From contig NZ_JAJISP010000001.1 in the NCBI RefSeq assembly GCF_022132145.1, positions 496,001 through 560,000 on the forward strand: 64,000 bases of DNA, read 5' to 3'. Shown piece after piece: positions 31,960 to 35,147 of this stretch. The notes below the pieces were generated by a model. That model was not told the DNA's origin, made no database searches, and was given only the letters and a program-made list of their open reading frames with translations. Positions within the stretch are counted from its first letter, which is position 1. Every line of letters begins with the position of its first letter. Both the position numbers and the translations under genes were made by a program. The stretch is from Pseudomonas sp. MMS21 TM103. GTDB lineage: Bacteria; Pseudomonadota; Gammaproteobacteria; Pseudomonadales; Pseudomonadaceae.

Positions 31960-31977
31960 TGCCTTACCACTTCAAAC

Positions 31978-31999
31978 CCCTGCAGTTTTAACTGCAGGG
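31978..31999 (+). terminator. Hairpin terminator after the cupin gene
   Basis: CCCTGCAGTT and AACTGCAGGG form a perfect 10-bp stem with a two-base loop, starting 18 bp after the cupin stop. A TTGGCTTTTAG tract follows a few bases later. Confidence 0.65.
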
Positions 32000-32528
32000 T
32001 GAGTTGGCTTTTAGCCTTGATTTGAGACCGGCTAGTGGGCGGCTCCTTTTTAGTCGCCTTTATCTGTCTTTTTCTTTCCTGGGCTAGTAGCGGCCGCTGC
32101 GGGCGAAGGTGTGGCTGAACTCAACCTCGGCGGTGGTTTCGGCGACCGGCCGGCCGTCGACGAACCACCAGCGCCGGCCAGAGAGCCCGCTCGTCCTCCG
32201 GCCACGGCAGGGAAAACAAGCGGTCGGTACTAAGCAGAAGCGTCAGAAACTGTATCGGCTGCATAACGACCCCTACCGAAGACGTATCCAGGCGAACAGC
32301 ACTGCCCAGCAACCTGCTGACGCCCGATAAAGCCCTAACACCCTGTAATCAGGCGACTTTCATGGATAGTACAGCGGCAGCTTCGCACCCAAAGCATGCC
32401 ATTTATCTGGCGCCGATTGTCTGCAATCTGCCTAATCATCAACCAGCAGCAGCCGATCGTCGGAATACTGTCGCAAAGCGCTTAAACACTGTTTCAGCTG
32501 CTTTACAACGTATCGGCGTCGATCTACA

Positions 32529-32560
32529 CCCACATCAAACTGACACCAGGTTGATGTGGG
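32529..32560. repeat. Inverted repeat in the gene-poor region
   Basis: CCCACATCAA (32529-32538) and TTGATGTGGG (32551-32560) are perfect 10-bp inverted repeats with a 12-base loop. No adjacent gene explains it. Confidence 0.5.
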
Positions 32561-32766
32561 CCGCGCTCCTGGGTCAGCACACGAAAGTCATCGGCCTCAA
32601 CCTCAGCCTCAGGACTCCCAACCAGGGATCACAGGACACCGCGAAGCCGCCAACCCCGACCCGGGGCTGGCGGCTTGGGGCCGCTCAGGCCCACACAGGG
32701 AGCATCGCAGCGGAATGGTCTGACTAGTAGGAGAGGAGCGCTCTTTTACCGGACAGGACAACAATC

Positions 32767-33441
32767 ATGGATTACATGCACCCAAGAAGTTCTCGGCAGG
32801 CAGCAGACCACAACCAGCTGACCGCAATGGATGCGGGCAGGCCTTTACGCGGCGGTATGGCGGTTTTACCTACCGCTCTGCTGTCGGCGGTGCTATTCGG
32901 CCTCAGCACGCCAACGCTGGCGGATCACACCGTCGAGCACGTCGTGACCAACCTCAAGGGCGGCCTTGGTGCCCTCGAGCAGCGGGTGTGGGATTGCGAA
33001 CATGGCATCGGCGGCGCCTGCCCTGGCACCAAGGGGGAGAAGGGCGATACCGGCGAGCAAGGCATCCAGGGCGAGAAAGGCGACACCGGCGAACAAGGTA
33101 TCCAAGGCATCCAGGGCAAGAAAGGCGACACCGGCGAACAAGGTATCCAAGGCATCCAGGGCGAGAAAGGCGACACCGGCCCGGAAGGCCCCACCGGCTT
33201 GGCCGCTTGGGAATCCGTATCCGTCGACTGCAACAACTCAGGCGGCAACGTAACCTGCACGGCGAACTGCACCGGGGACAAGAAAGTGCTCGGTGGCGGT
33301 GTTCTCAATACCAATGCCAACTGGTCCGTCATTGCAAGTTACCCAGTAACTGGTACGGGCTGGACAGCAGTGCTATCACGGCAAACCGGTTCGACCACTA
33401 CCAGCGTCACCACTTACGCCCTTTGCGCGAACACCAACTAG
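32767..33441 (+). CDS. Secreted collagen-like protein
   Basis: The 224-residue frame contains a signal peptide around MAVLPTALLSAVLFGLSTPT, with probable cleavage after LA before DHT. This makes the ATG at 32857 a rival to the one at 32767. Then come a short N-terminal domain with two cysteines, 19 uninterrupted Gly-X-Y triplets (rich in GEK, GDT, GEQ and GIQ) and a C-terminal domain. That domain contains the TGDKKVLGGGV and TTYALCA patterns seen in bacterial extracellular domains. Such triplets can form collagen triple helices. A role as a surface fibre or adhesin is inference. A related small secreted gene follows. Confidence 0.82.
   Translation: MDYMHPRSSRQAADHNQLTAMDAGRPLRGGMAVLPTALLSAVLFGLSTPTLADHTVEHVVTNLKGGLGALEQRVWDCEHGIGGACPGTKGEKGDTGEQGIQGEKGDTGEQGIQGIQGKKGDTGEQGIQGIQGEKGDTGPEGPTGLAAWESVSVDCNNSGGNVTCTANCTGDKKVLGGGVLNTNANWSVIASYPVTGTGWTAVLSRQTGSTTTSVTTYALCANTN
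33025..33198 (+). repeat. Collagen-triplet repeats with near-identical 45-bp units
   Basis: Within the collagen-like gene, the units at 33076-33120 and 33121-33165 are 45 bp long. Their first 42 bases are identical, and each encodes GDTGEQGIQGIQG plus a charged residue pair. A shorter 36-bp version precedes them. Near-identity at DNA level shows recent tandem duplication and predicts length variation between strains. Confidence 0.85.
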
Positions 33442-33463
33442 TCCGACCCAGGAGGTATGAGTC

Positions 33464-33766
33464 ATGAACAAGCTTTCGCTTTATATCTGGCCGGTCGTGG
33501 TGATGCTGATGGCCAGCCCCGCACTGGCCGATCATTGCGCCGCCGATGCGGCCGAAGCGCAAAACGCGGTCAACTATGCGGCCTATATCGAACCCAATGT
33601 TCTGGATGCGGTAACGGCCCTCTTCGACGACGCACTCGAGGCCTGTCGACAGGAGGAAGATCAACTGGCCACAGCGGAGTTCGGCTCGCCCATGCTCGAG
33701 CCGGATTATGTGTCGGTCGGCCAATCCATGCTGATCAACGTCACCGCACTGGTCAGCGCCCCATAG
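33464..33766 (+). CDS. Small secreted protein next to the collagen-like gene
   Basis: This 100-residue protein has a clear signal peptide (MNKLSLYIWPVVVMLMASPA, cleavage after LA before DHCAAD). The mature part is about 77 residues, acidic, Ala-rich and probably helical, with two cysteines that could form a disulfide. It starts 22 bp after the collagen-like stop with an AGGAGG site, so the two are very likely co-transcribed. Both proteins have the same LADH cleavage context. I recognise no family. Confidence 0.7.
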   Translation: MNKLSLYIWPVVVMLMASPALADHCAADAAEAQNAVNYAAYIEPNVLDAVTALFDDALEACRQEEDQLATAEFGSPMLEPDYVSVGQSMLINVTALVSAP

Positions 33767-34071
33767 GTCGGCGGCGACAGCCGCTCCCGCCACCCGGGTG
33801 CAAGCGCCGCCACGGCCTTGCACCCTTCTTTCTGCAGTCTACCGTTCCAATTCTCCGGCACACCCCACGCCCCGGCTTGGTCTACTGCATGCACCGCACC
33901 AATTCGGTACACACTTTCCCCCGAATGCAACCCAGGAACAGGCAAAGCACTGACATCTGCCCCACAACCCAATACCCCTGCGAGCCCGCCCCAGCAATGG
34001 CACACTAGTGCCCTTTGCCGCAGCCAATGGATAACCATTGCGGGCGGCGTTCGGCAGACAGGTATTGTTAA
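33767..34071. other. Intergenic region, nothing recognised
   Basis: This 305-bp stretch has no plausible gene, hairpin terminator or known regulatory motif that I could identify. Base composition is C-rich on the plus strand. Confidence 0.5.
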
Positions 34072-34365
34072 ATGCGGGTAGAAGGTTTTTTCGAGTGGCT
34101 CGGCCAGGTGTTCGGTGCAGTCATCCGCTTTGTCGTCGAGTCCATGAGCGGTTTTCTCGGCATGTTTGGCGATGCGTTCGGCGGTTTTATCAACGGCATG
34201 TCCAAGGCCCTGGGCATCACTCCATCGCTGCTGGGCATGCTGGTGCTGGTCATTGGCCTGCTGTTGCTCTACGCCGCCGTGCGCGCGTTCTTGCGCCGCT
34301 CGATCATTGCAGGGCTGATCTGGCTGTTCTTCGGCCTGTGGTTGCTCGGTGGGCTGATTAGCTAG
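34072..34365 (+). CDS. Small membrane protein, family not recognised
   Basis: The 97-residue frame begins MRVEGFFEWLGQVFGAVIRF. It has an amphipathic Phe/Gly-rich first half, a hydrophobic helix LLGMLVLVIGLLLLYAAVRA, a basic RAFLRRS turn and a second helix GLIWLFFGLWLLGGLIS. Codon use looks like real Pseudomonas coding sequence. No function can be offered. A strong terminator lies about 200 bp downstream. Confidence 0.65.
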   Translation: MRVEGFFEWLGQVFGAVIRFVVESMSGFLGMFGDAFGGFINGMSKALGITPSLLGMLVLVIGLLLLYAAVRAFLRRSIIAGLIWLFFGLWLLGGLIS

Positions 34366-34682
34366 TGGCCTCGCGTGCGCCGGATTGCATCCAGGCCACC
34401 CGAGCAAAACCTGGCCCAGAACAAATCCGCAGCTGTCGCTCAGGACACGGGATATGGAGGTCGAGAACAACGGGCAGTGGCCAGGTAACGGCGAACCTCG
34501 CCGGCATGTCGGTGCCGATGGCCCCGCGGGTACGACCTGCTGATCAACAGCTATTGCCACGAAGGCCGAAGCGTTCTGCGCTTCGGCCTTTTCATTGCTA
34601 ACCCACCCCAAGCAGCCTTGGCCCCGACATTGCGCCCGGCACCGCACCGGCGCTGGGCGCTAGGCGGGCCATGGGCCCGAGT
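34366..34682. other. Intergenic region with a terminator and a possible small RNA
   Basis: This 317-bp stretch ends with a strong intrinsic terminator (34562-34590) about 200 bp from the nearest upstream stop codon. No open frame runs into the terminator. Either the membrane-protein mRNA has a long 3' end, or an independent small RNA is made from about 34440-34595. Neither is shown by sequence alone. Confidence 0.4.
34562..34590 (+). terminator. Strong intrinsic terminator
   Basis: AAGGCCGAAGCG and CGCTTCGGCCTT form a perfect 12-bp stem with a five-base loop. TTTTC follows at once, counting the final T bases of the stem. This is a textbook rho-independent terminator on the plus strand. The A-rich left flank is too short to judge for the minus strand. 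Confidence 0.85.
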
Positions 34683-35147
34683 TCACGCGCAGAGGTCGCA
34701 CACCTCGGCATTGGGCGCCAGTTTGAAGAACTCGTCGACCGGCATGTGCACCAGGCTTTCGTGATCCCCTGCTTCCAGGTAGATGTCCTGCTGGCGCACC
34801 AGCATCGGGTCGATCAGCATCTCCAGGCCATAGACCTCGCCCAGCGCCGGAATCGCGCCGCGCTCGCAATCCTTGAACAAACTCACCAGCGCTTGCTCGC
34901 CACTGAGCTGCCAACGCTGCGTGCCCTTGTGCACCTTGCTCAGATCCAATTGCCGATTGGCCGGTAACACGGCCATCAGGTAATGCCCGCGGCGATCGTC
35001 GAGAATCACCGATTTAGCCATTCGCGCAGGAGGAATCCCAGCCTTGCGCGCCGACTCCAGGCTGGTCGCCGAAGGCATGTGTTCGACCAGCTTGAACTGG
35101 CAGTGTGCCCGCTGCAGGCTGCGCTCCAGGGTTTGTGCCATATGCAT
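34683..35147 (-). CDS. YbaK/ProX-type aminoacyl-tRNA deacylase
   Basis: The 154-residue protein has a single YbaK/EbsC editing domain, including the conserved lysine in ARMAKSVILD (Lys45) and the GEVYGLEMLIDPMLV strand-loop region. Such proteins hydrolyse mischarged tRNAs, for example Cys- or Ala-tRNAPro. The specificity cannot be set here. A strong GAGGAGGTG site supports the first ATG; a second ATG lies two codons later. The gene stands alone. Confidence 0.85.
   Translation of the reverse strand: MHMAQTLERSLQRAHCQFKLVEHMPSATSLESARKAGIPPARMAKSVILDDRRGHYLMAVLPANRQLDLSKVHKGTQRWQLSGEQALVSLFKDCERGAIPALGEVYGLEMLIDPMLVRQQDIYLEAGDHESLVHMPVDEFFKLAPNAEVCDLCA

Follow-up and report, generated by a model that had tools for sequence, protein, structure and literature searches.

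A collagen-like protein of Pseudomonas with a C-terminal domain related to PilV shufflon tip segments

Within the window, a 64-kb stretch of Pseudomonas DNA, lies a gene for a collagen-like protein (CLP) whose C-terminal domain is, by profile comparison, homologous to the tip segments of PilV shufflons (Table 1). CLP belongs to the broad kind of bacterial collagen-like proteins, the Pfam entry PF01391 (Collagen) being matched at 39.2 bits (gathering score 27.2) with an E-value of 6e-10, and is set apart as new within it by its tip and by the gene cassette that contains it. On balance we lean towards the view that CLP is a secreted adhesin with a collagen stalk, similar to Lcl of Legionella pneumophila, which bears a PilV-type and probably glycan-binding tip; its surface location, trimeric state, export route and glycan binding, as well as the role of its partner protein, are what we infer for it from the evidence below.

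Table 1. Features of the CLP locus, in window coordinates
Feature	Position	Strand	Remarks
collagen-like protein gene (CLP)	32767..33441	+	224 aa; basis: ORF, Pfam Collagen, orthologues
signal-peptide-like N-terminal region	32767..32922	+	residues 1–52; orthologues with the same layout
N-terminal helix	32926..33000	+	heptad V4 V8 L11 L15 L18 V22 C25 (mature numbering)
collagen-like stalk	33025..33204	+	20 Gly-X-Y triplets; ~17 nm if triple-helical
tandem array	33058..33180	+	45-bp unit, 2.7 copies, 97% matches; Tandem Repeats Finder
CLP C-terminal domain	33205..33438	+	homologous, by sequence, to PilV shufflon tip segments
partner gene sec100 (name coined here)	33464..33766	+	100 aa, signal-peptide-like start, helical
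pbpC 3'-end remnant	32087..32194	-	36 aa, 67% identical; left flank of the site in relatives
core 97-aa membrane-type protein gene	34072..34365	+	right flank of the insertion site
CLP leader with conserved blocks	32362..32766	+	alignment of six leaders

Four parts follow one another along the chain. The first, judged by eye, opens with a long basic and then a hydrophobic stretch and ends in TLA followed by DH, between which cleavage of the signal would be placed; the secretion claimed in the first-pass annotation of this DNA is supported as far as the N-terminus goes. Residues 53–86 contain a helix and two cysteines, residues 87–146 consist of perfect and uninterrupted Gly-X-Y triplets, which number 20 rather than the nineteen counted at first, and residues 147–224 form a separate domain. 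The near-identical 45-bp repeats reported in the same annotation are real, with 97% matches, but amount to fewer than three copies (2.7), and the near-identity of the units within the gene agrees with the recent duplication at the DNA level that had been proposed. The array reaches a Tandem Repeats Finder score of 239, and four of the six rows returned by this program for the whole 64 kb fall within the CLP gene. The pattern is more than chance, since both ends of the protein are kept in five other genomes with the same gene order.

The heptad positions of the N-terminal helix are hydrophobic or cysteine in all six orthologues, and the helix is also present in an AF2 single-chain model of low confidence (mean pLDDT 53). 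This conserved heptad helix, together with its cysteine, is probably the trimer nucleus of CLP, and a likelier one than the C-terminal domain. The stalk of the window protein contains five KGD/KGE pairs and only two prolines; such pairs stabilise proline-poor collagen helices. With its 20 triplets and two prolines it is short and may be thermally marginal. Among the five uninterrupted genes of the family the triplets number 20 (window), 47, 58, 64 and 72, the gene of G060 (L034), whose frame is broken at one N, being left out of these counts as well as of the dN/dS and mosaic tests given further below. The repeat units are GEKGDTGEQGIQGIQ-like in the window, GPVGPQGPQGEV in G224 and GDKGDKGETGDIGPIGLK in G381, and the ends that enclose them are conserved in the six sequences, 25 of 38 alignment columns of the N-part and 17 residues of the C-part being invariant. 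The main repeat units found across the family measure 27, 36, 45, 54 and 81 bp, all multiples of 9, so that gain or loss of copies changes the length of the protein and keeps its frame. Consequently, of the phase or length variation predicted from the repeats, switching of the frame finds no support in the unit lengths, whereas variation in length does exist between species (20–72 triplets between conserved ends), one genome per species having been compared. The five intact genes, with 20 to 72 triplets, constitute a compact natural set for relating stalk length to adhesion.

The family is rare in Pseudomonas, as had been surmised. CLP finds matches at E ≤0.001 in 23 of 398 Pseudomonas genomes, its own included, and the N-part and C-part are both shared in only six (the window, G288, G224, G060, G242 and G381), that is, in five of 397 besides the window. 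The other 17 were rejected as members of the family: among all loci examined, the N-part motif occurs only at the six cassettes, the match in G008 is a PilV tip, those in G079 and G169 are other long collagen tracts, and several more are wrong-frame or low-complexity translations. The tracts of G079 (L013, 72 triplets) and G169 (L021, 67 triplets) are unrelated to CLP and lie in frames devoid of the CLP-family ends. When 95 relatives were searched with the whole CLP, 11 matches at E ≤0.001 were obtained, its own included; six of these come from the 36 genomes outside the genus, and none of the six covers both ends of CLP. The C-terminal profile A1, run against 299 genomes of the phylum, matched in the window's own genome only. 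A related-locus search of genome contigs returned one locus, in a Flavobacteriaceae MAG, with most of the alignment falling on the collagen part; on that contig (L031, 1–7797) collagen-type repeats extend along nearly the whole 7.8-kb stretch. As for a phage origin, a search of 50,697 phage records gave no match to the whole CLP, the C-terminal domain or a PilV tip, and the best PHROGs values (0.016 for the tip, with a tail sheath family, and 0.05 for the partner) were taken as chance. Two CLP tips used as queries found no match on plasmids among 72,556 records. In the open-licence literature no paper with both 'shufflon' and 'collagen-like' was found, and no title among the matches listed for Pseudomonas and collagen-like proteins names such a Pseudomonas protein.

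Bacterial collagen-like proteins often end in domains of unknown purpose, and neither Pfam nor NCBIfam returns a match to the C-part of CLP up to an E-value of 10, or to four of its relatives up to an E-value of 1; it is this domain that can now be linked to PilV tips. G008 gave a single-sequence match (E 6e-5 within that genome) in a stretch of a 0.9-Mb contig which, by eye, looks like a PilV shufflon. This tip or a similar one is carried by 27 plasmid records, all from Pseudomonas, and in L103 and L105, the two examined examples with a near-identical tip, it is flanked by a site-specific integrase gene and by a gene whose annotation reads type II secretion or prepilin-type protein. A profile built from the six CLP C-terminal domains (CLP-only) gives 33.3 bits for the L103 tip and 24.5 bits for the L104 tip, compared with 13.6 and 14.2 bits for the best of their shuffled versions, none of which reaches the true score (0 of 19,946 and 0 of 19,979). 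For L104b, a third tip from a Pseudomonas plasmid, the score with this profile is not significant, two of 19,883 shuffles reaching it; against a wider collagen-cap profile none of 9,885 does so. For the tip homology hhalign gives a probability of 96.6. An outside test took 1282 ORF segments out of 128 kb fetched from the conjugative plasmids R64, P9 and R721, of which three pass with the CLP-only profile, one per shufflon (E-values of 1.2e-9, 1.3e-9 and 5.5e-9), the next value being 0.3; the score of the R64 tip is reached by none of 19,997 scored shuffles. Only one tip per enterobacterial shufflon thus matches the CLP domain. Homologues of the matching R64 tip are present in 1718 plasmid records, several of which (H57, H72, H73, H76, H79 and H80) bear the annotation 'PilV pilus tip adhesin'.

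Across 14 aligned sequences the tip domain keeps six residues (C, GG, P, W, C) without exception. The description of the C-terminal domain as cysteine-containing therefore stands, two of its conserved cysteines being invariant in all 14 sequences, window included, and these two probably form one disulfide. Its proposed use as a trimerisation device fares less well: by its homology with PilV the domain is better explained as a functional tip than as merely a trimerisation knob. In the AF2 model (again of low confidence, mean pLDDT 53) it is all-beta. Foldseek returned nothing for the CLP model at an E-value of 0.001 or below; among solved structures the six-sequence C-terminal profile gave at best a weak E-value of 0.016 over 46 positions (MPT63), and the fourteen-sequence profile nothing better than 2.5. 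Some tip segments of these conjugative type IVb pili (R64, P9, R721 and Pseudomonas plasmids) share with CLP the homologous domain and its position at the end of the protein, whereas the CLP tip is carried by a collagen stalk and the PilV tip by a pilin. As whole proteins the two also differ: where PilV has a type IV prepilin N-part and a shufflon recombinase gene close by, Pfam finds only Collagen in CLP, with none of the seven scanned neighbours of its gene being a recombinase. PilV-type shufflons of Pseudomonas were seen in L104 (P. aeruginosa plasmid pPAC1.3a, 3200–5200), L103 and L037, and most of their tip segments are without a gene in the PLSDB table, which is itself incomplete.

The domain was also searched for on other carriers with a nine-sequence profile (six CLP tips and three plasmid tips, cut-off E 0.01), which matches in eight of 229 Gammaproteobacteria, the window's own included. 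Five of the seven other matches (L106–L110, two of them from one genus) have collagen-type repeats before the domain and so share both elements with CLP. L106 and L108, which are from one genus, differ in being lipoprotein-like, with the collagen part starting right after the lipid-box cysteine, and in L107 stalk and tip are separated by an additional region; the N-parts of L109 and L110 are cut off by the end of the sequence. L111 and L112 (E 0.004 and 0.008) were rejected as collagen caps, as they sit, by eye, in proteins of other kinds. Since the same domain is met on collagen stalks and on plasmid tips, it recurs on both carriers.

With the link to PilV, what the fibre binds can be asked directly as a question of glycan binding. 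PilV variants of TP114 and R64 are described as recognising defined LPS disaccharides (PMC10654706, PMC9045228), the sugars having been assigned, according to passages of PMC10654706, by matings with LPS mutants, and for PilV2 a piece of 97 residues from the C-terminus is reported to bind P. aeruginosa LPS in ELISA (PMC5297154), a comparison made at the level of PilV proteins as a class. The tips A, A', B', C, C' and D' are given as common to R64, TP114 and R721 in the consulted part of PMC9045228; as a matching tip is present in R721 too, the match in R64 should be one of these six. Five of them have an assigned sugar, and B' stands without an assigned receptor in the consulted part of PMC10654706. 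Because one tip per shufflon matches and the sugars of the tips differ, a particular ligand cannot be carried over to CLP.

The other known system to which CLP compares is Lcl, described in passages of PMC11162425 as a trimer, a type II substrate and a cell-aggregating adhesin, and whose repeat number is reported to tune biofilm (PMC11162425, PMC6460258). As far as these sources describe Lcl, both proteins have the same order of parts (signal, N-terminal helix, collagen repeats, C-terminal domain; the signal of CLP being judged by eye) and a changeable number of repeats with a 15-residue unit (PMC11162425, PMC6460258), and the N-terminal helix spans about 25 residues in CLP and 30 in Lcl. On the other hand, the NCBIfam model NF046116 scores 52.6 bits on CLP, against a cut-off of 500, and aligns with residues 85–148 (collagen) only, which places CLP outside the Lcl family by score; nor does an Lcl chain appear in the solved-structure lists of two CLP C-terminal profiles, drawn from a structure set that may contain no Lcl. 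The streptococcal Scl1 and Scl2 likewise have Gly-X-Y triplets but are wall-anchored, and their models score 42.9 bits (cut-off 400) and 41.7 bits (cut-off 325), respectively, on the collagen part of CLP only.

The order of parts found in Lcl, the homology of the tip with PilV and the presence in the window genome of two GspD-type secretins over the family cut-off lead us to propose an Lcl-like fibre with a PilV-like tip. Judging from its N-terminus, the CLP chain would be exported by Sec and would then cross the outer membrane, probably through a type II system. Three chains would be brought into register by the heptad helix at the N-terminus, with its cysteine, and would then wind into a triple-helical stalk, which could measure ~17 nm in the window and up to ~62 nm in relatives. 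The stalk would hold up the small PilV-related tip (related by sequence, all-beta in a weak model), and the tip, by homology, would bind a surface glycan, most simply the LPS of the same or of neighbouring cells, with aggregation, biofilm or host attachment as the outcome. The 100-aa helical partner, which co-occurs with CLP, would probably act as chaperone, anchor or co-subunit. Both stalk and tip appear to diversify, the former through species-specific repeat units and the latter as if exchanged. Three points speak for a soluble secreted matrix or glycan-shielding protein that would coat the cell's own LPS without linking it to another surface: by eye CLP shows neither a lipid nor a wall anchor, a tip of this kind could also bind the LPS of the producer itself, and Lcl is described as aggregating cells (PMC11162425). 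The results fit such a coating function as they fit an adhesin, but we give it a low probability.

The gene order around CLP bears on whether the protein leaves the cell at all. The partner gene is found in six of 398 genomes, the same six as CLP, and only together with it; the mature part of its product is all-helical in a model of modest confidence (mean pLDDT 66), and the protein is probably secreted. The core gene to the right is present in 386 of 398 genomes. In all five cassette-carrying relatives the order is pbpC, CLP, partner, core gene and A2M (alpha-2-macroglobulin), and in 11 of the 12 genomes that best match the core gene and are without the cassette the empty site (pbpC, core gene, A2M) was recovered; in the 15 kb fetched from the twelfth, G222 (L090), pbpC and A2M are both missing. 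The constant place of CLP and its partner between pbpC and A2M would suit a periplasmic accessory of the PbpC/alpha-2-macroglobulin envelope-defence pair, with the collagen rod acting as spacer or scaffold in the periplasm, the more so as A2M and PBP1c have been proposed to work together and several small proteins of the periplasm are partners of the type II A2M complex in P. aeruginosa, according to passages of PMC5764988. However, those 11 of 12 near relatives possess pbpC and A2M without the cassette, and the tip has its relatives in pilus tips, whose site of action is extracellular. Moreover, at the window site (31960–34683) pbpC is reduced to its 36-aa end and A2M is lost relative to the relatives: A2M was not found anywhere in the window genome, nor in G222 (78% complete), by a search that was positive in G381, G187 and G288 at 82–85%. 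Since the window keeps CLP and its partner after the loss of both neighbours, the cassette does not depend on them, and a periplasmic role appears unlikely to us. The same loss indicates that the window locus may be under erosion.

The cassette and its surroundings appear not to share one history. The flanking proteins of G381 are 92% and 93% identical to those of the window and G224, versus 84% and 83% to those of G060 and G242, whereas its cassette proteins are 65% identical to each of G060 and G242, versus 57% and 59% to the window and G224. The flank tree and the cassette tree disagree as well; because some sequences in the former are incomplete (79 to 708 residues), identities were used instead of branch order. 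The occurrence of two cassette subtypes at one site, together with their patchy presence, suggests that cassettes are exchanged there by recombination. In nine of nine comparisons (N-part, tip and partner gene) dN is lower than dS, the dS of the tip against G381 being saturated. That CLP in the window is a decaying remnant which has lost its function in this species is doubtful, for although it has the shortest stalk of the family (20 triplets against 47–72 in relatives) and neighbouring genes have been lost, its frame and that of the partner are intact, dN stays below dS in N-part, tip and partner gene, and the near-identical units point to recent duplication and not only to loss. Silent differences between the window and G224 amount to 15% in the N-part and 60% in the tip (p 6.5e-7), and those between G242 and G381 to 40% and 74% (p 4.8e-4). 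The contrast between N-part and tip lies under 1e-3 in these two of ten pairs; three of the remaining eight lean the same way (p 0.009 to 0.03) and five are without difference. Tips may thus have been exchanged between relatives, bearing in mind that silent differences can be overstated where a diverged tip is aligned. Tentatively, these observations could be extended to a receptor-binding tip module shared by conjugative pilus adhesins and collagen-stalked secreted proteins, for which the Pseudomonas locus would be a chromosomal site of diversification, the one place where a cassette of stalk, tip and partner is acquired, lost and exchanged, tandem duplication changing the length of the stalk and recombination replacing one tip by another. 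Were this true, each species would display its own LPS- or glycan-specific fibre.

Upstream of CLP, a leader of ~400 nt (32400–32766) contains blocks conserved in six cassettes, for example CCGA-CGTCGGA and ACTGACA-CAG, which are possibly regulatory. A 121-aa ORF at 32362–32727 was rejected as a gene, its frame being broken by alignment gaps in homologous DNA. The Pseudomonas sRNA P17 of Rfam, aligned at 32532–32675 (+), is a putative match at most, with 26 bits below a gathering score of 45, and P17 was not seen in the leaders of the two relatives searched (L032 and L036). Between 31900 and 34100, no promoter-like sites were found, compared with 0.8 in shuffles, and one terminator-like site, compared with 2.0. 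At ~4.6 kb from the cassette of G288 (L032, 3482–3571) lies a C4 antisense RNA (Rfam RF01695, 63.7 bits), an element of the phage P1/P7 type.
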